Source: Acidimicrobiia bacterium (GTDB lineage Bacteria > Actinomycetota > Acidimicrobiia > IMCC26256 > JAGPDB01). From it: DNA of 53,906 bases. Under the pieces are notes generated by a model. It worked only from the letters and a program-made list of their open reading frames with translations. It had not been told where the DNA came from and ran no database searches. This document shows, piece after piece, positions 4,666 through 20,391 of this stretch; within the stretch, counting starts at the first letter, position 1, and each line of letters starts with the position of its first letter. The DNA is taken from the NCBI GenBank assembly GCA_018057765.1, contig JAGPDB010000011.1, positions 1-53,906 of the forward strand. Direction: 5' to 3'. A program made the translations under genes and the position numbers.

Positions 4666-7623
4666 ATGGCTAATAATGTGCGAACACAAACTAATTTTAA
4701 ACCACCTTCCAAAAAGACCATTGTTATTTTTGCAATTGTTGCTTTTATCTTCCTTTTTGGTTCAAGTTTTAAATCCATTGCAACTTTTTTTGTAGAGAAA
4801 ATGTTATTCTCTTCGCTTGGACAAGGTGATACGTTCAACAAATTGCTAAGTGCAAAATATTTTATTCCTACACTTTCATTTGTGATTATGACCTTTGTAT
4901 GTGTATTTATTATATTCCTTACTAATAGGAATGCAAAACACCACTCGACACAGAACAAAACAGATGTGTTCATGACTGTACCTGCTTCAATATTTAAGAC
5001 AAAACCTGTTTTGATTAGAAACATAATTTCTATAATCGTAGGTGCATTTTTTGCTTCAACGACTTATGGTTATTACAAAGAATGGATACTTTTTAGAAAT
5101 GGCTCAAATACTGGGATTAAAGATGCAACTTTTAAGAAAGACATAGGTTTTTACTTATTTAAATTACCATTTATTCAAGTGTCACTAACTTGGTTGTTCA
5201 CTGCTTTAATAGTGTTGATCTTAATTAGTGTTCTATCGCTACTGCTAACAGGTGGATTGCGACTTGAAGCGAATAAACGCCATATTTCTACATATGGAAG
5301 AATTCTATTATCGGTTTTGTTATTTCTCACTACATTGGTTAAAGCAGCAGAATATTATTTTGAGAAATTTTCTCTTGTACACTCAACAAGAGGTGCAATA
5401 GATGGTGCTACGTACACTGATATCAATGCCCAAATTCCAGCACTACGTCTGATGGTATTCGTTGCAATTATTGCATCAATATTATTTTTGGTAAATGTTT
5501 TTCGTAAGGGTATCGTGTTACCCCTTGTTGCACTTGGGCTTTGGCTAGCTGTTGGTCTCGTCGTAGGTACTGTATATCCAGCAGTTATACAAAGATTTGT
5601 AGTTACACCTTCTAGGAATACAAAAGAAAAGCCATATGCTAAACAAAATATCGAAGCTACAAAGGCTGCATATGATCTCGATACTATTGAGTCATCAAAT
5701 GTAAATTATGAGCAGACAATATCTCCAGAGACAGCACAAAGTGTAAAGGCCGCATTAGCAAATGTCACACTATTTGATGAATCTAGCGTTGCTCCCTATA
5801 TACAGCAAAAAAGAGGAACACAATATTATGAATTTGGCGTAGGTGATCGCGATAGATATACCGTTGATGGCAAAGTGTTACCATCAATAATTTCTTCACG
5901 CGAACTTGTTGCAGCTAGTAATCTACCTGATAAATCATGGCAAAGTATCCACTCGGTTTATACTCACGGATTCGGAGCAGTTGCCCTTAATTCATCAGAA
6001 GTATTACCCGATTCCGCTCCAGACTATTTAGTTGCAGATCTTCCAAATGTTACAGAGAAGAAAACTGGCAATAAATCTAAAGATACTAGTAGTGTTGTGA
6101 AACCAGCAACTAATAGCCTCTCGTTAGATACTTCGAAAGCAAGGGTGTATTTTGGTGAAGGTCTAAATGATTTTGTATTTGTTGGTTCTAAAAAAGAACA
6201 AACACCTACAACTGACAAATTTGATCTAGCGGAATCTACGGGAGTTAAATTAGACTCATTTTTGAAAAAAGCTGTTTTTGCACTCAACTATGCAGATTAT
6301 AATATTATGATTTCTGATGTTGTAAATAAAGATACAAAGATCATTTATGATCGTAATCCTGCCCAGCGTGTTAAAACCATTGCACCTTTTTTAGATATTG
6401 ACTCTGATCCATACCCTGTAATTACAAATAATGAAATAGTTTGGGTTGTGGATGCTTATACAACTTCTAACCAGTATCCAAATTCTCAATATTTAGATCA
6501 GGATAATTTAGATTTCAGTAGCTCTTTAAATAAAAGAATAAATTATGTCCGCAATAGTGTTAAGGCAACAGTTAATGCACGAACTGGTGAAGTAAATCTA
6601 TATGTTATAGATCAAAAAGATCCAATAATTAAAGCATATGAGAAGGCTTTTCCTAAGTTATTTAAGAAGGAAAGTGAAGTTCCAAAGGATATAGTTGATC
6701 ATTATAGATATCCTAACGATATTTTCGATGTTCAAAGCCAAGTTTTAGCTGACTACCATGTGAGTGATGCAACAACATTGTTAAAGAGTTCTAATAAATG
6801 GCAAGCAGCTCCTGATTTAGCTGGTACTGGTACTACAACACAGATTACAACAGTTGCAGAAAAAGGTGGTCGTGCAGATAAATTAAAATCAGTTGGTACC
6901 CCAATCCCTGGTTTATACCAATATATTTCTCATACGGCAATGGAAAAACCAGAGTTTGTATTAACTCGCTCATTTACACCTATCGGTGAAACTTTTAAAA
7001 TGGAATCTTATCTATCCGTAAGTTCTGATCCCGGTAGTTACGGGAAGATGAGATTGGTTAACTTTAAATCGACTGCAGATGCTAGCGCGTTGACTCCAAC
7101 ACAGATTGTTGGACAAATAAATGGTGATGAAGCTTTTTCTAGAAACAAAACTTTATTAGGTCAGCAAGGATCTTCTATTGTTCCGGGTGCATTACAGATA
7201 ATTCCAGTCGGAAATACTGTTGTGTATGTTCAGCCACAATTTGTTCAAGGTGATTCTGCGGATTCTAGACCTGTGCTTAAATATGTGACTGTATCTGTCA
7301 GCGGCTTAACTGTTTGTGCTGCTTCTATCGATGAAGCAGTAGATATGCTTATTAGCGGAAAACAGGAATGTTCTGAATTCGCTGCAGTCTCGTTGCCCTT
7401 GCCAGGAAGTACACCAAAAACAGATACTGTAACAACAGATACTACTGTAAGCACTCCTTCAAGTGATATCTCTAAATTGTCAGATAAAGACCTTGTTAAC
7501 GCTTTGGCGCAAGCTCGTGCAGATTACGATAAAGCACAAAATCCTGTAGATTTAGGTGCATTACAAAAAGCTGCAGATAAAATGGCTAAATTTATAGATG
7601 AACTTGAGAGACGTAATAAATAA
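4666..7623 (+). CDS. UPF0182 family membrane protein
   Basis: A 985-residue protein of full family length. Around seven hydrophobic segments lie in the first 310 residues. They are followed by a large domain, predicted extracytoplasmic, containing the family-type stretches NVNYEQTI, RVYFGEG and YPVITNNEIVWVVDAYTTS. A Thr/Ser linker (about 925-945) and a charged helix close the protein. UPF0182 proteins occur mainly in actinobacteria and cyanobacteria and have no established biochemical function; a link with envelope processes is inferred from neighbours such as the PDZ protease. The ATG start lies 16 bases after the previous stop, without an obvious Shine-Dalgarno, which suggests translational coupling. 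Confidence 0.93.
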   Translation: MANNVRTQTNFKPPSKKTIVIFAIVAFIFLFGSSFKSIATFFVEKMLFSSLGQGDTFNKLLSAKYFIPTLSFVIMTFVCVFIIFLTNRNAKHHSTQNKTDVFMTVPASIFKTKPVLIRNIISIIVGAFFASTTYGYYKEWILFRNGSNTGIKDATFKKDIGFYLFKLPFIQVSLTWLFTALIVLILISVLSLLLTGGLRLEANKRHISTYGRILLSVLLFLTTLVKAAEYYFEKFSLVHSTRGAIDGATYTDINAQIPALRLMVFVAIIASILFLVNVFRKGIVLPLVALGLWLAVGLVVGTVYPAVIQRFVVTPSRNTKEKPYAKQNIEATKAAYDLDTIESSNVNYEQTISPETAQSVKAALANVTLFDESSVAPYIQQKRGTQYYEFGVGDRDRYTVDGKVLPSIISSRELVAASNLPDKSWQSIHSVYTHGFGAVALNSSEVLPDSAPDYLVADLPNVTEKKTGNKSKDTSSVVKPATNSLSLDTSKARVYFGEGLNDFVFVGSKKEQTPTTDKFDLAESTGVKLDSFLKKAVFALNYADYNIMISDVVNKDTKIIYDRNPAQRVKTIAPFLDIDSDPYPVITNNEIVWVVDAYTTSNQYPNSQYLDQDNLDFSSSLNKRINYVRNSVKATVNARTGEVNLYVIDQKDPIIKAYEKAFPKLFKKESEVPKDIVDHYRYPNDIFDVQSQVLADYHVSDATTLLKSSNKWQAAPDLAGTGTTTQITTVAEKGGRADKLKSVGTPIPGLYQYISHTAMEKPEFVLTRSFTPIGETFKMESYLSVSSDPGSYGKMRLVNFKSTADASALTPTQIVGQINGDEAFSRNKTLLGQQGSSIVPGALQIIPVGNTVVYVQPQFVQGDSADSRPVLKYVTVSVSGLTVCAASIDEAVDMLISGKQECSEFAAVSLPLPGSTPKTDTVTTDTTVSTPSSDISKLSDKDLVNALAQARADYDKAQNPVDLGALQKAADKMAKFIDELERRNK

Positions 7624-9935: not shown

Positions 9936-12134
9936 ATGCTACTTTCCATTACAAAATTCTGTTTTAAAAAATATCGTATTGTGATTTCAATATGGCTAAT
10001 AGCTTTAGTTGCTTTTGTCGCATTAGCATCGAGCTATTCAGGAGAATGGTTAGACCAAGGAGCGTTGCCTAATACAGAATCGTCCAAAGCTATAGAGGTA
10101 TTAAAGAAAATAAATCCTGATTTGGCAGACAATGCAGCACAATATGGTGCACGTATAGTATTTGAATCAAAAGATGGAATTATTAATCACGAGAAGGAAA
10201 TAGATGCTTATCTAAATACATTAGTTGCGAAGAAAGATAAAACTAATATAGCAACTTTCCAATCACCATTTGACAAGAAAACTAATGGTATACAAATTTC
10301 AGATGATGGAAATATTTCTTACGCAGAAATTACTTTTGAGTCGGGTATAAAACTTCAAAAGGCTGGAGTTCCATCTATAGATTTAGCAAAAGATTTACGC
10401 AAAAGCATTACTGTTGAATTTAGTGGCCAGGGTTATCAAAACTTTGAGATACCAAGTAGCGAAGCAATAGGCATATTTGCTGCGTTGCTCATATTGCTTT
10501 TCGCATTTGGCTCACTAATAGCAGCAGGTGTTCCAATATTTACAGCAATCGTAGGGATCGTTATTTCATCTAGTGTTGTTGCACTTATTGCAAATCTTGT
10601 AGGTATTCCTGAATTCACAACACAAGTAGCAGCAATGATCGGTATTGGTGTTGGTATCGATTATGCATTATTCATTGTTACTCGATATCGTGAATCTTTA
10701 GCTAGGGGAAACGATCGTGAATCAGCAACTATAGAAGCTATGACTACGTCTGGAGCAGCGGTACTTTTCGCTGGTATGACAGTTGTAATTTCTCTATTAG
10801 GCATGTTATTCATAGGCCTAGAATTCATTAACGGTTTAGCAATCGGTACATCAATAACAGTTTTTATAATGGTTCTAGGTGCGCTAACTTTCGTGCCAGC
10901 ATTATTAGGTTCAGTAATCGGAAAAAATTTACATCGTCTGTCTGTTCCTCAGCGTAAAGTTGACCCAAATAAAAAGAAATTCTGGGTAAGATGGTCAGAA
11001 TTCATACAGCGCCGTGCTTTGATATCGTTATTATTAGGTGTGGTAATACTTGGTACTTTAGCTATTCCATTATTTTCATTACGTGTTGGTGCTAGTGATG
11101 ATTCAAATGTTGGAAAGAAAGAAACAGTACGTAAATCGTATGAGCTTTTAGCTAAAGGTTTTGGGCCTGGTTTTAATGGGCCATTACTTATTGTTTTAGA
11201 TTCTGGTCAAGCAGGTAAACCGGAAGTATTAGCAAAAGTTGTTGGTGAGCTCGAAGCAATAAAAAATATTGAGAGCGTATTTCCTTCATCGCAAGTTATT
11301 AAAGCAGCAAGTCAAAATGCTAATGCGATGCCAAAACCTGGCGAATCTCAAATTTCTGTAATAAATGTGAAGCCAAAAACTGGTCCACAAGATGAAGCAA
11401 CAACAAATTTGATAAATCAATTGAGAAATGATATTTTGCCGAAAGCATTAAAAGATTCTGATGCGAACACAAATGCAAAAACATATGTGAGCGGCTTCAC
11501 GGCTTTTAATGCAGATTTTGCAACTGTTATGGGCGAAAGAATCCCAATATTTATTACTGCGGTTTTAATTTTAAGTTTCTTATTGTTAATGGCAGTATTT
11601 AGATCCGTATTAGTTGCATTAAAAGCAGTGCTTATGAATCTACTTTCTATCGGTGCAGCCTACGGTGTAGTTGTTGCTATATTTCAATGGGGTTGGTTGT
11701 CAAAACTCATTGGTATCGAAGGGGCAGGACCAATCGAAGCTTGGGCGCCAATGATGCTCTTTGCCATAGTATTTGGACTTTCTATGGATTATGAAGTTTT
11801 CTTGCTTTCAAAAATCAAAGAAGAATATGATGATACAAAAGATAATGCAGCAGCTGTGACACACGGACTTGCTGCAACTGCAAGAGTAATAACAGCAGCT
11901 GCTCTAATAATGGTATTTGTCTTTGGTGCATTCATACTTGGTGACAACCGACAAATAAAACTAATGGGGGTTGGTCTCTCGATGGCTGTATTGTTGGATG
12001 CAACTATTGTTCGTATGCTTTTAGTACCTGCAGCAATGGAGTTATTGGGCGACAAAAACTGGTGGATTCCTAAATGGTTAGACAAAGTAATACCTAAGAT
12101 CCATGTAGAGGGCGTCAAAGCTGAAAAGCATTAG
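9936..12134 (+). CDS. MMPL/RND-family transporter
   Basis: A protein of 732 residues from the ATG at 9936. The frame stays open to a TTG at 9906, but that start would overlap the divergent sufU start, and MLLSITKFCFKKYR gives the usual short cytoplasmic lead into the first helix. The architecture is a duplicated half: one helix, an extracytoplasmic loop and a five-helix bundle, then the same again. Family-type sequences include IGIGVGIDYALFIVTRYRE in the first half and FGLSMDYEVFLLSKIKEEY in the second. MMPL proteins export lipids or small hydrophobic compounds using the proton gradient; the substrate here is unknown. A weak hairpin follows near 12155-12185. Confidence 0.93.
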   Translation: MLLSITKFCFKKYRIVISIWLIALVAFVALASSYSGEWLDQGALPNTESSKAIEVLKKINPDLADNAAQYGARIVFESKDGIINHEKEIDAYLNTLVAKKDKTNIATFQSPFDKKTNGIQISDDGNISYAEITFESGIKLQKAGVPSIDLAKDLRKSITVEFSGQGYQNFEIPSSEAIGIFAALLILLFAFGSLIAAGVPIFTAIVGIVISSSVVALIANLVGIPEFTTQVAAMIGIGVGIDYALFIVTRYRESLARGNDRESATIEAMTTSGAAVLFAGMTVVISLLGMLFIGLEFINGLAIGTSITVFIMVLGALTFVPALLGSVIGKNLHRLSVPQRKVDPNKKKFWVRWSEFIQRRALISLLLGVVILGTLAIPLFSLRVGASDDSNVGKKETVRKSYELLAKGFGPGFNGPLLIVLDSGQAGKPEVLAKVVGELEAIKNIESVFPSSQVIKAASQNANAMPKPGESQISVINVKPKTGPQDEATTNLINQLRNDILPKALKDSDANTNAKTYVSGFTAFNADFATVMGERIPIFITAVLILSFLLLMAVFRSVLVALKAVLMNLLSIGAAYGVVVAIFQWGWLSKLIGIEGAGPIEAWAPMMLFAIVFGLSMDYEVFLLSKIKEEYDDTKDNAAAVTHGLAATARVITAAALIMVFVFGAFILGDNRQIKLMGVGLSMAVLLDATIVRMLLVPAAMELLGDKNWWIPKWLDKVIPKIHVEGVKAEKH

Positions 12135-12226
12135 ATTTATAGAACTTCATATATCTCTCCAGCGCTTCGCGATAGTTCCGAGATACATAAAGCCTTAAAC
12201 ATATTTTTATATATAATTTTCAGTAT

Positions 12227-12255
12227 TTGACGTATATATGTCGTTTGGCTATAAT
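12227..12255 (+). promoter_or_regulatory. his operon promoter
   Basis: TTGACG at 12227-12232, a 17-base spacer, and TATAAT at 12250-12255: a near-perfect vegetative sigma-factor promoter. The expected transcription start (about 12262-12263) falls on the ATG of the His-rich leader peptide. Confidence 0.85.
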
Positions 12256-12262
12256 TAATGTC

Positions 12263-12346
12263 ATGTTAAAGCGAAATATATTTTCTAACCAGTCATTTGC
12301 TTCATCTTTTCATGCACATCATCACCATATTATGGCGGTGAGCTGA
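12263..12346 (+). CDS. hisL: Histidine operon leader peptide (27 aa, leaderless)
   Basis: ATG at 12263 to TGA at 12344-12346. The peptide carries His-Ala-His-His-His-His at codons 17-22 (bases 12311-12328), the hallmark of a histidine attenuator as in enteric hisL. Its ATG lies seven bases after the TATAAT box, so the mRNA has essentially no 5' UTR and the peptide must be translated leaderlessly. After the His codons, GGCGG (12334-12338) can pair with CCGCC (12376-12380) of the terminator's left arm to form an antiterminator. TCACC (12322-12326) can pair with GGTGA (12337-12341) to form the competing protector hairpin. A ribosome stalled at the His codons would therefore favour readthrough into hisG. 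Confidence 0.85.
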   Translation: MLKRNIFSNQSFASSFHAHHHHIMAVS

Positions 12347-12374
12347 TTTAGTTTTTATATACTAATTTCTTTGA

Positions 12375-12399
12375 CCCGCCACATTAGGCGGGTTTTTTT
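12375..12399 (+). terminator. his attenuator (rho-independent terminator)
   Basis: CCCGCC (12375-12380), loop ACATTA, GGCGGG (12387-12392), then seven T residues (12393-12399). A compact GC-rich stem followed by a U-run, placed between the leader peptide and hisG. Confidence 0.88.
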
Positions 12400-12500
12400 A
12401 TTGCTCGTCTATTTGCAAACTTTGTCATTCGTACCTAAGTAGAGTCCTTTAGAACAATGTCAAAAGATCTAAAATCAATTCACAGACCAAAAAGGAAATC

Positions 12501-13397
12501 ATGAATCAACAAGAAAATTCTTCTACACTAAAAGTTGCTATGCCACGTAAAGGTCGAATTGCAAGTTCATTAAGCTCACTATTTATTAACGCAGGTTATG
12601 AGTGGCCAATAAATGATAAAGAAGGAATGCTATTTGCGAGATTATCTAAAGATATTGAAGCAATGTATATTAGAACAACAGATATTCCAGAAATCGTTGC
12701 AGATAATATCGTTAATTTAGGGATAACTGGAACGGATTTGGTTGAAGAGTCGGGCTGTAATGTGAAAGTTATTCAAGAACTTAATATTTTCAAATGTCGG
12801 CTAGTTCTCGCTGCAAGCCCGCAATGGGCTGAAAAATATAATAAGAAAAAACAAAACACTATAAGAATTGCAACATCTTTTCCTAAAATAACTAGGAAAT
12901 GGGCGCAAGAGAATGGTCTCGACATTATGATTGTTCCACTTTCTGGTTCTGTAGAAATTGCTCCGCGTTTGGGTATTGCAGATGTCGTGGTTGATCTGAC
13001 TCAAACTGGAGTTACACTTCGCAACAATGGTTTGATTGAAGTTGAAACTATACGCGATGTCAAGGCATGTATTGTTGCTCCTGGTGATTTTGATATTGAA
13101 TCAACGAATACAGAATCATTACAAACAAAAATATTTGTCGATACATTAATGTCTGTATTAAATGCACGTGGCAAAAGGTATTTGATGATGAATGCGCCAA
13201 AGTCGGCTATTGATGAAGTTCGCAAGATTATACCTGGGTTAACTTCTCCAACTGTATTAGATCTTTTCCAAAATAGTGATGTAGTAGCTATACATGTAGT
13301 TGTTGATTTTACTGATATAAATGTTATTGTCCCAAAGCTTCGTGCCTTAGGCGTTAAGGGAATTTTAGTTTCACCTATAGAAAAGCTAATACCATGA
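12501..13397 (+). CDS. hisG: ATP phosphoribosyltransferase (long form)
   Basis: Catalyses the first step of histidine synthesis, ATP plus PRPP to phosphoribosyl-ATP. At 298 residues this is the long, self-sufficient form, with two periplasmic-binding-like lobes and a C-terminal ACT-like regulatory domain (about 220-298, including VAIHVVVDFTDINVIVPKL). It should therefore be feedback-inhibited by histidine and need no HisZ. The family stretch DVVVDLTQTGVTLRNNGL is present. The ATG is preceded by AAGGAAATC. It is the first structural gene after the attenuator and overlaps hisC by four bases (ATGA). Confidence 0.95.
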   Translation: MNQQENSSTLKVAMPRKGRIASSLSSLFINAGYEWPINDKEGMLFARLSKDIEAMYIRTTDIPEIVADNIVNLGITGTDLVEESGCNVKVIQELNIFKCRLVLAASPQWAEKYNKKKQNTIRIATSFPKITRKWAQENGLDIMIVPLSGSVEIAPRLGIADVVVDLTQTGVTLRNNGLIEVETIRDVKACIVAPGDFDIESTNTESLQTKIFVDTLMSVLNARGKRYLMMNAPKSAIDEVRKIIPGLTSPTVLDLFQNSDVVAIHVVVDFTDINVIVPKLRALGVKGILVSPIEKLIP

Positions 13398-14434
13398 GTA
13401 GTTCTTTAATGCGACCTGAATATGAAGGCATGGATACTTATAACGGTATTGAAAATCGAGCTCTGATTGATCTCGGTCAAAATACAAATCGATGGGGTAT
13501 GAATCCGGCAGCGAAAAGAGCATTGCTTAATATTGATGATGATATTATTTTTAAATACCCAACTCCTTATGGAGATGATCTAAAAGACGAAATAGCTAAG
13601 TATGTTGGTGTTAATTTTGATCAAGTTTCAATTGGGTCTGGTTCATATGACCACTTAGACACAATTATTCGAGCTTGTTCAAAACCCGGTCAAGTATTTG
13701 CAATATCGAACCCGAGTCTACCTGTAGCAGAACTTGTAGCAAAAATGAATTGTCTTAATATTTCTTTAGTGGATTTTAAAGAAAACTATTCAATTGATAC
13801 AGATGCATTAGTTGACACTGGCGCTCAGGTCATATTCCTATGTTCACCAAATAATCCTACAGGTACTATTATCTCAGCTGAAGAAATTATTGCTGTCATA
13901 GAAAGAGCAAAAGGTCTTGTGATTCTTGACGAAGCATACAGCGAATTTAGTAATACTAATTATGATGAGCTCATTAATAAATATGACAACTTAGTTATAT
14001 TGAGAACTTTTTCAAAAGCATTCGGTCTAGCTGGTATGAGAATAGGCTATGCATTAGCTTCAAATGAACTTACTAAAGCTATTGAAATATCTCGAGGTAT
14101 TTTTAAAACGAGCGCATTATCAGAATACATTGCTAGTCAATGTTTGCAAAATGGTGTTGATGAGATGAAAAATATTGTCAACGAAACAATTGATTCACGT
14201 GAAAAATTTATTGCAGATTTAAAAGAACTTTCGCTAAATCCAATAGAAAGTGAAGCAAATTTTGTGCTAGTTCCTTTTAATGATGCTCAAATTTTTGGTG
14301 AAAAACTTTTTAGTAATAATATTAGTGTGCGAGTTTGTATAGGACTCGCTGGTATTGGTGATGCACTCCGAATCACTATTGGCCCAAAAACAGAAATGGC
14401 TCTAGTGATTGAAGCATTAAGAAAGATATTGTGA
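13394..14434 (+). CDS. hisC: Histidinol-phosphate aminotransferase
   Basis: A 346-residue fold-type I PLP enzyme converting imidazole-acetol phosphate to histidinol phosphate. The PLP lysine is Lys208 in RTFSKAFGLAGMRIGYA. Asn154 lies in the SPNNPTG loop and Asp179 in ILDEAYSEF. The ATG overlaps the hisG stop (ATGA), indicating translational coupling. The N-terminus (EYEGMDTYNG) differs from the enteric version but leads into the usual LGQNTNRWGMNPAAK substrate-arm region. Standing between hisG and hisH, the assignment to HisC rather than another class I aminotransferase is secure. Confidence 0.94.
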   Translation: MSSSLMRPEYEGMDTYNGIENRALIDLGQNTNRWGMNPAAKRALLNIDDDIIFKYPTPYGDDLKDEIAKYVGVNFDQVSIGSGSYDHLDTIIRACSKPGQVFAISNPSLPVAELVAKMNCLNISLVDFKENYSIDTDALVDTGAQVIFLCSPNNPTGTIISAEEIIAVIERAKGLVILDEAYSEFSNTNYDELINKYDNLVILRTFSKAFGLAGMRIGYALASNELTKAIEISRGIFKTSALSEYIASQCLQNGVDEMKNIVNETIDSREKFIADLKELSLNPIESEANFVLVPFNDAQIFGEKLFSNNISVRVCIGLAGIGDALRITIGPKTEMALVIEALRKIL

Positions 14435-15024
14435 TGAAAGTAACTATTTTTGATTACACAGTAGGAAATGTGCACTCATTAGCTAAAGCATTTTCTATTG
14501 TCGGTGCAGATGTAACTATTGAAACAAAATTAAAAAGCTTTAAGGGAGTGGATTTGTTAGTACTCCCAGGTGTTGGTGCTTTCGATCCTGCAGCAGAAAC
14601 ATTGAATACTTATAAAAATGATATTCTTGAAAACCTTAATGATGGACTTGCATGTTTTGGTGTATGTTTGGGAATGCAAATCTTTTTCGAAAAATCAGAA
14701 GAAGGTGAACTTCCTGGCTTAGGTATCATTAAAGGTGAAGTTAGGAAAATTGAATCTAAGCGTACTCCGCATATGGGTTGGAATGATATTTATGGCAATG
14801 ATAAAATATTAAAACAATCTGGTATGACAAATGGATACTATGCAAATAGTTTTGTGTGTCAGCCAGAAGATGACAAAGTTGTGGTTGCTTTATCTAAACA
14901 AGATAATGACGAATTTCCTGCAATAGTAAAACAAGACAATATCACTGGTGTGCAATTTCATCCAGAAAAATCTTCTGTTGGAGGAATAAATTTTTTGAGA
15001 GAATACGTAAGGAGTCTCAGCTAA
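14434..15024 (+). CDS. hisH: Imidazole glycerol phosphate synthase, glutaminase subunit
   Basis: A 196-residue class I glutamine amidotransferase that supplies ammonia to HisF. The catalytic triad is visible: Cys78 in FGVCLGMQ, His176 and Glu178 in VQFHPEKS. I chose the ATG at 14434, which overlaps the hisC stop by one base (TGATG), over the GTG one codon upstream. It is followed by hisA with a one-base TAATG overlap. Confidence 0.95.
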   Translation: MKVTIFDYTVGNVHSLAKAFSIVGADVTIETKLKSFKGVDLLVLPGVGAFDPAAETLNTYKNDILENLNDGLACFGVCLGMQIFFEKSEEGELPGLGIIKGEVRKIESKRTPHMGWNDIYGNDKILKQSGMTNGYYANSFVCQPEDDKVVVALSKQDNDEFPAIVKQDNITGVQFHPEKSSVGGINFLREYVRSLS

Positions 15025-15725
15025 TGAAAATAATCCCAGCAATTGATTTAAGGGAAGGTAAATGTGTCCAACTTCGTGGAGGATCATATGATGATGAGTT
15101 AGTACGACTTGATGATCCGGTAAGTGTTGCTAAAAGTTGGAAAAATAAAGGATATAAAATGCTTCATGTTGTTGATTTAGACGCAGCAACAAACAGAGGG
15201 AGTAATCGTGAGATTATCGAAGAATTAATTGATGTATTCCCAGAGAATATACAAATTGGCGGAGGAATCCGTGAAGTTGATGATATTTCTTGGCTAATAG
15301 ATAAGGGTGCGTCTGCTGCCATGGTTGGAACAAAAGCAGTTTTAGATCCAAAATGGCGAAATTTAATTGCCAATAAGTTTCCTGGAAAAATAATTTATTG
15401 TGCTGATGTGATTGCAGATGAACGTATTGTTGTATCAGGGTGGAAACAAGACTCTGGTATAACACTTGTTAAGGCACTTGATGATATTTCTAGTCTTGAT
15501 TTATTTGGTGTTTTAATAACATCTATTGTTCAAGAGGGAACAATGGGTGGTGTTGATAGTGCACTTTTTGAAAAGGCAACATCTTATTCATCATTGCCAA
15601 TTATTGCCGCAGGCGGTATTGCTTCGTATAAAGATATTGAAATATTAAAAAATGCAGGAGTCTCGAGTGCTGTTGTTGGAACAGCAATGTATTTAAACGA
15701 TTTTTCTATTAAGGATGATAACTAA
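15024..15725 (+). CDS. hisA: ProFAR isomerase (HisA, TIM barrel)
   Basis: A 233-residue TIM barrel that isomerises ProFAR to PRFAR. The N-terminal MKIIPAIDLREGKCVQL carries the catalytic Asp8, and IQIGGGIREVDDI is the first phosphate-binding loop. The second half contains IIAAGGIASYKDI. Many actinobacteria have PriA, which also serves tryptophan synthesis; I cannot decide HisA versus PriA from sequence alone. The start overlaps the hisH stop (TAATG), and the stop overlaps hisF in the same way. Confidence 0.93.
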   Translation: MKIIPAIDLREGKCVQLRGGSYDDELVRLDDPVSVAKSWKNKGYKMLHVVDLDAATNRGSNREIIEELIDVFPENIQIGGGIREVDDISWLIDKGASAAMVGTKAVLDPKWRNLIANKFPGKIIYCADVIADERIVVSGWKQDSGITLVKALDDISSLDLFGVLITSIVQEGTMGGVDSALFEKATSYSSLPIIAAGGIASYKDIEILKNAGVSSAVVGTAMYLNDFSIKDDN

Positions 15726-16492
15726 TGGTCTATCAAAGAATAATCGCTTGTCTTGATGTCGCTAATGGTCGTGTTGTTAAAGGTACTAAATTTGTTGACC
15801 TAACCGATAAAGGTGATCCTGTTGAACTAGCTAAGCGATATGAAGCTCAGGGGGCTGATGAACTCGTGATGTTGGATATTTCTGCAACGATTGAAGAACG
15901 TGTAACATTTCTAAAAACTGTCGAGCAAATCGCAGAATCTATTTTCATACCATTGGTTATTGGAGGTGGCATAAAAAATCTTGATGATATTACTAATGCA
16001 TTACGTTCTGGCGCGGATAAAGTTGCTATTAATTCAGCTGCAATTGCCGATCCAACAATTATTAGTCGTGCAGCTGCACAATTTGGATCACAATGTATTG
16101 TTGCATCAATAGATGTCCGACAAAAAGGTGATGCGTGGGAAGTGGTATCGAGAAGTGGCACTACAGATGTAGGATTAGATGCAATTATTTGGGCTCAACA
16201 ATGTGTTCAAAATGGTGCTGGTGAGATTTTGATGACAAGTATTGATCGTGATGGCACACGTATTGGCTATGACACTGAGCTCTTAAGTACAGTGCGAGAA
16301 TTAGTAGATGTACCTCTAATCGCATCCGGAGGAGCCGGTACTATTGAAGATATAGCCTATGTCTTTACACAATCTAATGTTGATGGGGCACTACTTGCAG
16401 GAATATTGCACGATGGGAAAATAACAGTTGAAGATATAAAAGATGAATTAATAAAAAATCCAAAATTATCGATTAGAAAAGTTGTTTTATGA
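15725..16492 (+). CDS. hisF: Imidazole glycerol phosphate synthase, cyclase subunit
   Basis: A 255-residue TIM barrel forming imidazole glycerol phosphate and AICAR from PRFAR and ammonia. Hallmarks are RIIACLDVANGRVVKG with the catalytic Asp, PLVIGGGIKNLDDI, IVASIDVRQKG with the second catalytic Asp, and LIASGGAGTIEDI. Full family length. It overlaps hisA by one base and hisI by four bases (ATGA), and pairs with the HisH encoded two genes upstream. Confidence 0.96.
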   Translation: MVYQRIIACLDVANGRVVKGTKFVDLTDKGDPVELAKRYEAQGADELVMLDISATIEERVTFLKTVEQIAESIFIPLVIGGGIKNLDDITNALRSGADKVAINSAAIADPTIISRAAAQFGSQCIVASIDVRQKGDAWEVVSRSGTTDVGLDAIIWAQQCVQNGAGEILMTSIDRDGTRIGYDTELLSTVRELVDVPLIASGGAGTIEDIAYVFTQSNVDGALLAGILHDGKITVEDIKDELIKNPKLSIRKVVL

Positions 16493-18072
16493 AAAGCAAT
16501 ATTGAAAAATTCGATATCGAACTTATTGATTTTGAGAAAGGTAACGGCACTATTGCCGTTGTTACAATTGATGACAACAATGGTGAAGTACTGATGTTGG
16601 CTTATGCCGATCGTCAAGCTATAGAGTTGTCTCTTTCAACGGGCCAAATGCATTATCTTTCAAGAACGAGAGGTTTATGGCATAAAGGGGCAACTAGTGG
16701 AAATTTTCAAAAACTCATCAGATTAAGTCTAGATTGTGATAATGATTCTATTATCGCACATGTAATATCTAATGGGCCTGCTTGTCATCTTAACACTCGT
16801 TCATGTTTTCGTGAAGTAGATATAACTAATCAAGTTAATAATTCTGATATTCCTATATTAGAACAAATTCAAAAGATTCAACATAGCGATCTTTCTCTCG
16901 CGCAAGATATGACAAAAGCATGGTTTAAGAACGCACTTGATATAGAAGCGACTGATGTTATTCTCACTCCGCAGCCAACATCTTTAAACTCGTTTAATGG
17001 CATAGCAATAATTAACGCTGAATCCGTCTTCTTTAAATCTCACACTGAACCAGATAGTGTAATTACTGAATATTATAATTGCCAGATTTTAGATGATGCT
17101 AAATATTCTATCGTGAAACCTTTACGCACTGAAAGGAGCCTTGATCAGCAAATAGTTTTTTATCCTGTAATTAATTATTCAACATTATTCGATTTATCGC
17201 GATCTATTGAACGTGAAGAAAATGACAAAATATCTAGTGAAACAATTATTAAAGCAGAAAAAGATGATTGTCTGAAACTACAGAAGATATATAGTGATAC
17301 TTTAGAATTAATTGATGAAAAAGAAAATGCACTAGCTCCAATACATCAACTTTTCTTTCACCGAATTACTGGCGAGCGTTTTATAGATTACTATGATGGG
17401 AAATCTATAGACACTCTTGATGATAGTCGAATATCAATCCAAGATTTATTTCATAAATCTTGGACCATCAATGGTGTGAAACAAGGATCAACCCTAGGAG
17501 AATTAATTGATAGAGCAAGTATTGTTTTAGATCCATCCCAAAAAACCTATTCATGCATCGGTCATGGCGATGCACATTTTGGAAATATATTTCTTGACGA
17601 TGATAACAATTATCTTTATTTCGATCCTGCCTTTGCTGGAAGACATTCACCAATTTTAGATATGGTCAAACCATTTTTTCATAATATTTTTGCTCAGTGG
17701 ATGTATTTTTCACAAGAGAAAGCAAAAGAAATAGATATTAAAGTTTCAATTGATGACGATAATATAAAACTCGAATATTCTGGGGCATTTACTTCTCTGA
17801 GAAAAGAACTTTACGAAGTTAAACAAGAATATCTTGTTAATCCTATTATGGAAATGTTAATTGAAAAAGGTGAGTCGCAAGAATCGCTAATGGAATTATT
17901 CTCACTGGCGCTAATGTGTTGTCCATTGTTGACACGTAATTTATCTGACACAGATATTTACTCGCCATCAATTTCTTGGCTTGGTTTTGCGATTGCAGTC
18001 CAGTTGGGTAATGGTTTTGAACTGCAAGATTTTAGATTTCTAAATTCTACAAAAGGAAAAAATGATAAATAA
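16489..18072 (+). CDS. hisI: Phosphoribosyl-AMP cyclohydrolase fused to an APH-like kinase domain
   Basis: A 527-residue protein with two parts. Residues about 1-115 are a complete HisI, which opens the ring of phosphoribosyl-AMP. The metal site is visible as Asp82/Asp84/Asp86 in LDCDNDS, with Cys83, Cys99 and Cys106 (ACHLNTRSCF). Residues about 135-527 look like an aminoglycoside/choline-kinase-type phosphotransferase: a possible N-lobe (FFKSH near 181-185), the catalytic loop His359-Gly-Asp361-x-His-x2-Asn366, and Asp379 in YFDPAFAGRH. HisI is normally alone or fused to HisE; here hisE is separate (20095-20391). I know of no described HisI-kinase fusion. The reading frame is continuous, and the gene overlaps hisF by four bases and hisD by eleven. 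The kinase substrate is unknown. Confidence 0.85.
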   Translation: MKSNIEKFDIELIDFEKGNGTIAVVTIDDNNGEVLMLAYADRQAIELSLSTGQMHYLSRTRGLWHKGATSGNFQKLIRLSLDCDNDSIIAHVISNGPACHLNTRSCFREVDITNQVNNSDIPILEQIQKIQHSDLSLAQDMTKAWFKNALDIEATDVILTPQPTSLNSFNGIAIINAESVFFKSHTEPDSVITEYYNCQILDDAKYSIVKPLRTERSLDQQIVFYPVINYSTLFDLSRSIEREENDKISSETIIKAEKDDCLKLQKIYSDTLELIDEKENALAPIHQLFFHRITGERFIDYYDGKSIDTLDDSRISIQDLFHKSWTINGVKQGSTLGELIDRASIVLDPSQKTYSCIGHGDAHFGNIFLDDDNNYLYFDPAFAGRHSPILDMVKPFFHNIFAQWMYFSQEKAKEIDIKVSIDDDNIKLEYSGAFTSLRKELYEVKQEYLVNPIMEMLIEKGESQESLMELFSLALMCCPLLTRNLSDTDIYSPSISWLGFAIAVQLGNGFELQDFRFLNSTKGKNDK

Positions 18073-19387
18073 ATTCATATTAAATGAAATGTCCGATTCA
18101 GATAAGAATAGAATTATGCAAAGGGCACAAGCTGACTATTCTCGCGTTGAGCCAATTGTTCGTATTATTATCGATGAAGTTAGGCAAGGTGGTGACAGCG
18201 CTATTGTTGATATAACAAAGCGCATCGACAAAATAGATTTAGAAGTTGACGCTCTTAAAGTTTCTAAAGAAGAATTCGAAATTGCTGAGAAAGAAATATC
18301 TCCTGAACTAAAAAAATATCTTGAAGATGCATTTAAGAATATTAATTTGCACCACAAAGAACAGTTACCTCAGAAGTCTTGGCAACAAGAAAATGTTCCT
18401 GGTGTCATAGTCGGCGAGAAAACTACTCCTATTATGTCTGTGGGTCTCTATGTTCCACGTGGTAAAGGTTCTTTCCCTTCAGTAATGTTGATGCTTTGTA
18501 CTCCAGCTGTTATTGCTGGTGTGCCAGATATTTATGTTTGTACTCCTCCGGGTCCTGATGGATCCATTGATGCTGCTTCACTTGTTGCTGCAAGAATTTG
18601 TGGTGTAGAAAATGTATATAAAGTTGGTGGCGCTCAGGCAATGGCAGCATTGGCTTATGGTACGCAAACGATACCAAAAGTTGACAAGATAGTCGGTCCA
18701 GGAAATCAGTATGTTTCTTGCGCTAAACGATTAGTCTATGGAATAGTTGATCCTGGTTTGCCAGCGGGTCCGAGTGAATCTATTGTACTCTGCGATGAAA
18801 CTGCGGACCCAGAAATTGTAGCGCGCGAATGGTTAAATGAGGCAGAACATGGACCTGATTCAGCTGCACTTTTAGTTACTAATTCGATTGAACTGATAGG
18901 GAAAGTTGAGAAAATTGTTCCAGGTTTAATTGCTCAACTCACCCAGGAAAGAAGAAATTTTATAGAAACTGGTTTGAGTACTTACGGTGGAATAATTATT
19001 TGCTCAGATTTTGAAGCGGGTATAGATTTTGTCAATGAATATGCACCTGAACATTTGCGAATAATTTCTAAGAATGAAACTGAAGATATGGACAAGATCA
19101 TAAATGCAGGCGAAATTCTTGTAGGAAGTTATTCTTCTATCTCTTATGGGAACTTTGCTATAGGTCTTAATGCCATTTTGCCAACTGGGGGTACAGCGCG
19201 AAGAGATTCTTGTGTCGGTGTTGAAACATTTCTAAAACGTTCATCATTTTCTATTGTAAGTGCACAAGGTGCTGTAATCATTAGTCCTATTGCTGAAGCA
19301 CTAGCACAATGGGAGGGTTTCCCAGGCCATAAAGAATCGGCAAGATTTGCTCGTATAAAAGCAGAAAAGGAATTGATAGATGAATAA
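18062..19387 (+). CDS. hisD: Histidinol dehydrogenase
   Basis: A 441-residue Zn- and NAD-dependent enzyme performing the last two oxidations from histidinol to histidine. Family sequences are GLYVPRGKGSFPSVMLM, VYKVGGAQAMAALAYGT and DKIVGPGNQYVSCAKR. The catalytic Glu-His region is YAPEHLRI, and the C-terminal half has LNAILPTGGTARR. The ATG overlaps the hisI-kinase stop by eleven bases with AAAAGGAAAA upstream as ribosome site. The stop overlaps the HAD gene by eight bases. Confidence 0.95.
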   Translation: MINKFILNEMSDSDKNRIMQRAQADYSRVEPIVRIIIDEVRQGGDSAIVDITKRIDKIDLEVDALKVSKEEFEIAEKEISPELKKYLEDAFKNINLHHKEQLPQKSWQQENVPGVIVGEKTTPIMSVGLYVPRGKGSFPSVMLMLCTPAVIAGVPDIYVCTPPGPDGSIDAASLVAARICGVENVYKVGGAQAMAALAYGTQTIPKVDKIVGPGNQYVSCAKRLVYGIVDPGLPAGPSESIVLCDETADPEIVAREWLNEAEHGPDSAALLVTNSIELIGKVEKIVPGLIAQLTQERRNFIETGLSTYGGIIICSDFEAGIDFVNEYAPEHLRIISKNETEDMDKIINAGEILVGSYSSISYGNFAIGLNAILPTGGTARRDSCVGVETFLKRSSFSIVSAQGAVIISPIAEALAQWEGFPGHKESARFARIKAEKELIDE

Positions 19388-20102
19388 TATTTCTAAAGAT
19401 ATTGTTGTTTTAGCTGGTCGATTGAGTATTCCATCTCAAAGCAAAGCCTTATTGTTTGATATGGATGGGGTATTACTAGATACCCTCTCATTTGATTATA
19501 AATACGTAAATATTTTATTAAGAAAATATATTAATGAATCAATATCTGTATCACAAGAAATAATCCAAAGAAACTTTGCACTAGCCGTACCAGATTTTTT
19601 TGGTGTTATTTTAAAAGAATACGATATTGTCGTAAATGAAAAAATATTCAGTTTGATAACTGAAGAATTTGATCTGCTAAGGTCACAAAGTAATCCGAGT
19701 ATTCACGAAGGTATATTAGAAATATTGCAAGATGCAAAGGAACGAAATCTATTATTATGTGTTGTCTCTAATAACGCGAAAAATGACGTAACTTCTATCT
19801 TATCGAATACTGGTTTACTTTCGTATTTCGAAAAAGTTGTTGGAAATGATAAACCAGGAATACTAAAGAAACCTGCACCTGACATGTATTTAGAAGGTGC
19901 TCGATTATTAAACGTTGATCCATCTAGTTGTGTTGTAATTGAAGACTCCGTTTTAGGAGCACAAGCTGGTTCAACTGCACAATGTTTTGTAGTGGGAGTT
20001 GGCACTGGTGCGAATAGTTTCATTGAACTTGAAGAAAATGAATATGTTAATGTTGCATATCCTAATTTTTCTATAAATCCAGACCGGAGTAACCATGAAT
20101 AA
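19380..20102 (+). CDS. HAD-family hydrolase in his operon, candidate histidinol phosphatase
   Basis: A 240-residue haloacid-dehalogenase-type phosphatase of the beta-phosphoglucomutase-like subfamily. Motif I is LLFDMDGVLLDT (Asp27, Asp29), motif II VVSNNAKN, motif III the Lys in GILKKPAPDMY, and motif IV VIEDSVLGAQAG. A helical cap lies between motifs I and II. It is embedded between hisD and hisE with eight-base overlaps on both sides, so it is co-translated with the pathway. No HisN or HisB phosphatase is present in the operon, so it is a good candidate for histidinol-phosphate phosphatase. That is an inference from context; a house-cleaning phosphatase is also possible. Confidence 0.82.
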   Translation: MNNISKDIVVLAGRLSIPSQSKALLFDMDGVLLDTLSFDYKYVNILLRKYINESISVSQEIIQRNFALAVPDFFGVILKEYDIVVNEKIFSLITEEFDLLRSQSNPSIHEGILEILQDAKERNLLLCVVSNNAKNDVTSILSNTGLLSYFEKVVGNDKPGILKKPAPDMYLEGARLLNVDPSSCVVIEDSVLGAQAGSTAQCFVVGVGTGANSFIELEENEYVNVAYPNFSINPDRSNHE

Positions 20103-20391
20103 TGTAAATGAAAGTTCACCACTTGCGAAATTGGATGCAATCATTGAACAGAGACTAATCGAACCAAAATCAGGTTATACTGATGAATTGTTGGCTGATA
20201 GTAACAAACGCATGAAAAAGATTGGTGAAGAATCAGCTGAACTTATAGTTGCATGTGTGCAAGGTGATAAAGAGTCTGTAGCAGGTGAAGCTGCTGATCT
20301 CTTTTATCATATACTCGTAGCAATTCGTGGTGTCGGTGTAACTTTCAATGATGTCGAAAATATTTTAAAGCAAAGAAATAAATCTAAGTAG
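20095..20391 (+). CDS. hisE: Phosphoribosyl-ATP pyrophosphatase
   Basis: A 98-residue all-alpha NTP pyrophosphohydrolase (MazG-like fold) that converts phosphoribosyl-ATP to phosphoribosyl-AMP, the step before HisI. The signature KRMKKIGEESAELIVAC and GEAADLFYHILVAIRGVGV carries the metal-binding Glu and Asp residues. Last gene of the his operon, overlapping the HAD gene by eight bases. A weak AT-rich hairpin (20414-20421 with 20436-20443) follows and overlaps the stop of the convergent lipoprotein gene. Confidence 0.93.
   Translation: MNNVNESSPLAKLDAIIEQRLIEPKSGYTDELLADSNKRMKKIGEESAELIVACVQGDKESVAGEAADLFYHILVAIRGVGVTFNDVENILKQRNKSK

Follow-up and report, generated by a model that had tools for sequence, protein, structure and literature searches.

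Does the short stretch in front of the histidine operon of this Acidimicrobiia genome encode an attenuator of the hisL type, and is its leader peptide read from a transcript that begins at the initiation codon? Both had been claimed in an earlier note made from the letters of the window, by which we mean the whole 53.9-kb stretch of DNA that was analysed. The promoter, the ATG, the ORF with its HAHHHH run and the terminator with seven T were all found at the positions that the note had given. On the forward strand, a -35 hexamer TTGACG (12227-12232, from the sequence and a consensus scan) is separated by a spacer of 17 nt from a -10 hexamer TATAAT (12250-12255, from the consensus scan and the genome-wide leaderless spacing profile), and the 7 nt TAATGTC lie between TATAAT and an ATG at 12263. 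This ATG opens the predicted leaderless leader-peptide ORF MLKRNIFSNQSFASSFHAHHHHIMAVS (12263-12346, forward strand), which has 27 codons followed by a stop and whose translation contains the regulatory His codons CAT GCA CAT CAT CAC CAT (HAHHHH, 12311-12328). An intrinsic terminator (12373-12399), identified by folding and by its conservation in two related genomes, sits between the leader ORF and hisG (12501), the cognate first gene; its stem (12373-12394) has six G-C pairs and runs into the seven T at 12393-12399. The pairing claimed between the end of the peptide and the terminator was likewise borne out, as GGCGG (12334-12338) is complementary to CCGCC (12376-12380). The first structural gene, hisG (12501-13397, TIGR00070/TIGR03455), has an AAGGA-type Shine-Dalgarno sequence just 5' of it and is followed on the same strand by hisC, hisH, hisA, hisF, a hisI fusion, hisD, a gene for a HAD-family phosphatase and hisE (13394-20391), giving the order hisG-C-H-A-F-I-D-(HAD)-E with the leader element directly upstream.

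Promoter, ORF, His codons, terminator, operon and conservation in three species can all be read directly from the sequence. From these features and the folding models, we consider it highly probable that a ribosome-mediated, His-tRNA-sensing attenuator controls the his operon, with the leader peptide made from a leaderless transcript that has a 5' UTR of 0-1 nt.

Several screens addressed whether the element exceeds chance. The genome scans covered 1.47 Mb of the 1.76-Mb genome G000 (84%), made up of the window, L118-L137 and L144-L197. Counting both strands, the window has no sigma-70 consensus match of at least 11/12 other than the promoter at 12227, and the whole 1.47 Mb has 36 such sites including it. 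A screen for ORFs of 7-45 codons that have four or more His within nine residues and a TANNNT box 5-8 nt ahead of the start returned 19 ORFs from the same 1.47 Mb, and only the window leader ORF had a strong terminator. In three genomes simulated by a second-order Markov model the number of such His ORFs was 1-4, and none had a terminator. In an independent screen for intergenic codon-run ORFs preceding terminators, the window locus was the sole His-rich match. The fold of the leader RNA was also more stable than those of dinucleotide shuffles (z about -3.7 to -4).

A his leader was present at the head of the his operon in both same-genus genomes of the set, G001 and G002. The G001 leader reads TTGACT-18-TATACT-GGTGGTT-ATG with the peptide MTTRFASAHVHHHILVGA, and the G002 leader reads TATAAT-GGAAGG-ATG with the peptide MQRTHIHGHHHHHILVGA. 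Both have GG-rich bases just before the ATG, which we do not regard as a Shine-Dalgarno sequence because they are too near to the ATG and precede the predicted start. In both genomes the terminator is again CCCGCC/GGCGGG followed by seven T, and the His run is HVHHH and HIHGHHHHH in these relatives. All three species share TCACCATATT without a difference, and the peptide sequence is unconserved except in the His run and at the C-terminus. In G001 and G002 the element precedes hisD-hisG-hisC and the upstream gene also differs from that in the window; since both the upstream and the first structural genes differ, the element has kept its place at the start of the operon despite rearrangement. 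The attenuation logic of the earlier note, against which a lack of conserved His codons and hairpin in relatives would have counted, was thereby upheld: both were looked for, and the His codons, the pairing and the terminator are kept in both genomes, with the his operon directly downstream. Covariation statistics would need more than these three species, among which the His antiterminator showed one-sided changes only. Pair counts from the MAFFT alignment, in which the terminator arm of G001 is displaced by one base, were not used for that genome. As a separate observation, the -10 box of the G001 his leader lies within an inverted repeat, CCACC-TATACT-GGTGG (L082, about 2067-2087), which is a possible operator or may be due to chance.

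A covariance model matched 3 of the 58 genomes of the order with E values of 1e-15 to 1e-19, these being the three from which the model was built, and in 396 genomes of the phylum nothing credible was detected outside the genus. Of the phylum-wide matches that we rejected, L141 looks by eye like a cobalamin riboswitch with its terminator, and L142-L143 were spurious. A search of the 396 genomes for a TATAAT-ATG-His pattern, which could not match the window itself because the His run there is further from the ATG, gave matches that were out of frame or unrelated. When about 98 regions ahead of hisD were searched in other Actinobacteria, none had a His-rich ORF with a terminator; the script recovered all three known cases, and its coverage of his operons starting with another gene was partial. 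Among viral contigs no hisG relatives were found.

The RNA folds contained three alternative pairings. Hairpin 1:2 (12310-12346) joins the His codons with the end of the ORF (core pairs 12319-12323/12337-12341 and 12325-12328/12332-12335) and is a rival to the antiterminator 2:3 (12333-12381), obtained in constrained folds, in which UGGCGG (12333-12338) pairs with CCGCCA (12376-12381); the terminator constitutes 3:4. Without constraints the window RNA folded into hairpin 1:2 and terminator 3:4. When the ribosome was held at His17, His19 or His20 and the RNA extended up to the terminator loop, 2:3 formed with -13.8 kcal/mol in the window, and the same stalled, loop-length folds gave -23.6 kcal/mol in G001 and -28.1 kcal/mol in G002. 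With the ribosome constrained at the stop codon, the terminator formed and the antiterminator could not. The species-matched 2:3 duplexes had energies of -11.5 kcal/mol in the window and -18.8 and -18.4 kcal/mol in the two sisters. With ribosome constraints, a mutually exclusive antiterminator built from the ORF end and the 5' arm of the terminator was predicted in all three species. In full-length folds with the ribosome at the first His codons the antiterminator won in the sister species, whereas in the window the terminator was still lower in energy and the antiterminator was weak (6 bp). Readthrough in the window must therefore rest on kinetics, and the weak antiterminator is, as modelled, a weakness of that copy.

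The proposed mechanism would work as follows. With charged His-tRNA plentiful, the ribosome would reach the stop codon and cover segment 2, the last bases of the ORF, which would let the CCCGCC arm pair with GGCGGG and end transcription before hisG. If His-tRNA ran short, the ribosome would stall at the first His codons, hairpin 1:2 would be broken and the freed segment 2 would pair with CCGCC (2:3), leaving the terminator too late to form and the operon to be transcribed. Without any translation, 1:2 and 3:4 would both form and transcription would end.

The question of leaderless initiation was approached through the spacing of -10 boxes at intergenic ATG starts in the 1.47 Mb. A TANNNT box was found at -12 in 119 of 632 starts, against a background of 24 ± 4.5 further upstream, and the flanking positions were near background, with -13 not enriched (30 vs about 24). 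We take this excess to mark leaderless transcription of about 95 genes, which is about 15% of the intergenic ATG starts. Shine-Dalgarno-like motifs preceded 2 of the 119 starts with a -12 box compared with 31% of all intergenic starts, a count to be read with the fact that the -10 box itself leaves little space for such a motif. G000 has four WhiB genes (PF02467), which identify the host as an actinobacterium; of 14 control genomes, Corynebacterium was the only one with this family. Leaderless translation in G000 thus appears ordinary, as expected for an actinobacterium, and the published actinobacterial share of leaderless genes is about 20% on average (PMC3896937). The view of the earlier note that a leaderless arrangement is uncommon in this lineage has to be given up, as about 15% of intergenic ATG starts look leaderless and leaderless attenuators have been published for Streptomyces.

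At the his leader, counted from the A of the ATG, the -10 box begins at -13 in the window and in G001, and exactly at -12 in G002; the distance from box to ATG is 7 nt in the first two and 6 nt in the last, and the genome-wide peak is at 6 nt. From the position at -13 the RNA 5' end is placed at A12263 or C12262. The spacing therefore fits the claim that transcription starts on or within a base of the ATG, with the refinement that the box is at -13 and not at the usual -12. No Shine-Dalgarno sequence at a usable distance precedes the leader ATG in the window, in G001 or in G002, which agrees with its reported absence in the earlier note. We infer that transcription is initiated at the ATG or right beside it and that the ribosome loads directly on the 5' end of the RNA.

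The same attenuator could also be transcribed mainly from a start further upstream, the peptide then having a 5' UTR. For this speak the -10 box at -13, off the modal -12, and an AT-rich stretch with TATAAT at 12212-12217, which could give a longer leader devoid of a Shine-Dalgarno sequence. We regard it as unlikely, because that TATAAT has no good -35 hexamer as far as can be read from the sequence, the 12227 promoter is without a second match of its quality in the window, and all three species combine the lack of a usable Shine-Dalgarno sequence with a -10 box 6-7 nt before the ATG. Much less credible still is that the hairpin merely terminates the upstream MmpL-type gene, with the His-rich ORF arising by chance. 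This gene is on the same strand and ends at 12134, after which nothing else stands out before the hairpin; however, a promoter separates the two, the simulations never gave the combination of ORF and terminator, and G001 and G002 have such a His-rich ORF and terminator ahead of the his operon despite the different upstream gene. At the level of sequence comparison, this conservation largely refutes the idea. An action in trans besides the cis attenuation, by the terminated leaderless RNA of about 135 nt or by its peptide, would be analogous to the rnTrpL/peTrpL system of Sinorhizobium meliloti, which also starts at the leader ATG (PMC7298713); given that the peptide is unconserved outside the His run and the C-terminus and that no evidence of a target was found, we hold it to be quite improbable. 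The preferred reading remains a cis-acting His attenuator with a leaderless leader peptide.

When this attenuator was compared with known systems, no Rfam family reached its cut-off in the window. The proteobacterial His_leader (RF00514) gave no match at the gathering score in the window and none in a permissive scan of 12200-12500, and no match was detected in the window to the T-box riboswitch, a class known from his genes of Gram-positives. Sub-threshold matches, such as one to Trp_leader (27.9 bits, cut-off 41), were dismissed as generic terminator resemblance. With enterobacterial hisL (RF00514) the element shares a run of His codons in a short ORF, alternative antiterminator and terminator structures and a his operon beginning with hisG, but it differs in having no covariance match, no Shine-Dalgarno sequence and three segments. 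Enterobacterial hisL has a larger set of multiple hairpins; its peptide has seven His in a row, whereas the window ORF has five His in 27 codons.

Leaderless leader peptides with attenuators have been published for Streptomyces lividans trpL (trpL1), leuL (leuL2) and ilvL (PMC8079986). These resemble the window element in a start codon at or next to the predicted transcription start, a run of product codons, a terminator and an actinobacterial host; the amino acids listed there are Leu, Trp, Ala, Ile, Met and Thr and do not include His, which is the one sensed in the window. In S. meliloti, too, the attenuated trpL RNA, rnTrpL, begins with the leader ATG, but that system responds to Trp, belongs to an alphaproteobacterium and has known functions in trans (PMC7298713). 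A 2022 study of Gram-positive bacteria describes T-boxes and HisR for Actinobacteria and His attenuators in three lineages of Firmicutes, namely the Bacillus cereus group, Peptostreptococcaceae and Erysipelotrichales (PMC9413887), and another reports hisS/hisZ in bacilli (PMC2965389). By these descriptions, the Firmicutes leaders share with ours a His leader and terminator before his genes outside Proteobacteria, but they belong to a different phylum and are not described there as leaderless. When Actinobacteria were surveyed in 2005, their his operons were found to lack a conserved RNA regulatory structure in the upstream region (PMC1262725), and Corynebacterium glutamicum is without a His-rich leader ORF (PMC3896937). 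What looks new is thus the His-specific attenuator in Actinobacteria and not its leaderlessness, as none is contained in the published surveys consulted here, a larger one from 2010 aside; this survey by Lopatovskaya et al. is represented here by its citation in PMC4833913, and priority for an actinobacterial His attenuator is accordingly not certain.

Attenuation would thereby join T-box-like elements and HisR repressors in the control of histidine synthesis in Actinobacteria, which suggests a further phylum in which His attenuators have arisen. Since attenuation needs the ribosome to keep pace with RNA polymerase over about 110 nt, this leader, compact and predicted to be leaderless, would offer a clean test of the speed of ribosome loading on nascent RNA that lacks a 5' UTR.

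The codon-run screen revealed a second switch of the same layout in G000, a Met-rich leader MNNSMTTSMMMHMMNMLRPELVS on the minus strand (L196, G000:C24:1-19000, 7132 to about 7010, ATG at 7132) with TTGACG-17-TATAAT-7-ATG and a strong terminator. It is present in both sisters (L217 1352-1470; L218, reverse complement from 1338), where G002 has MNTLMTTSMMSMAMLCPRLVS and G001 has MSTCSSSVFMMPMSMLCPRLVS; both copies lack a Shine-Dalgarno sequence, and their near-consensus promoters lie a few bases before the ATG. The -10 box of the G002 copy is 12 nt from the ATG, which makes a short 5' UTR of a few bases probable for that copy. The antiterminator of 13 bp is kept in all three species with one pair changed on both sides (A-U in G000, G-C in G002), as is one pair of the terminator. 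In G000 the leader precedes a flavoprotein-like gene and a gene for a GAF-type protein, whose best solved relatives are 3ksg/3ksf and yeast YKL069W (1f5m) with E values of 3e-5 to 7e-4; these relatives are free methionine-(R)-sulfoxide reductases. Judged from these sequences, the Met-rich leader supports the use of leaderless or near-leaderless attenuators by this lineage more than once, and it may be more interesting than the his leader. Such switches might even read the capacity for leaderless (70S-type) initiation besides one charged tRNA, because each ribosome must load on a bare nascent 5' end; the lineage would then use the layout for at least two amino acids, His and Met, and the Met version would sense Met both at initiation and at the regulatory codons. 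We put this forward as a speculation that is more doubtful than likely.

The hisG loci of Ignavibacteria/Melioribacter were also seen to contain short His-rich ORFs, often ending in GAG(I/L) or SAG(I/L) and followed by AACCCCG-type terminators (L035 5855-5926, L041 850-921, L045 5835-5927, L048 5855-5926, L057 5842-5919, L060 3837-3890, L071 5807-5926, L072 5859-5927 and L075 5692-5766). By sequence they apparently form a separate, unrelated group of His attenuators.

The his operon of the window itself has some unusual properties. No match to hisB (IGPD, PF00475) was detected in the operon (12501-20391) or in the whole 97%-complete genome, and hisB is present in G001 and in nearly all relatives of the order that were searched. 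The missing dehydratase step may be due to an assembly gap, loss or replacement. HisI (PRA-CH, 16489-18072) is fused to about 400 extra residues with no Pfam match, and by eye the C-terminal part contains an aminoglycoside-phosphotransferase-like GHGDAHFGN motif. HisD of the window (18062-19387) is 35% identical to that of G002, compared with 63% between G001 and G002 (L083/L088, L089), and its gene lies late in the operon and not first as in the congeners. Sequence identity and gene order point to a probable replacement of hisD together with a rearrangement of the operon.
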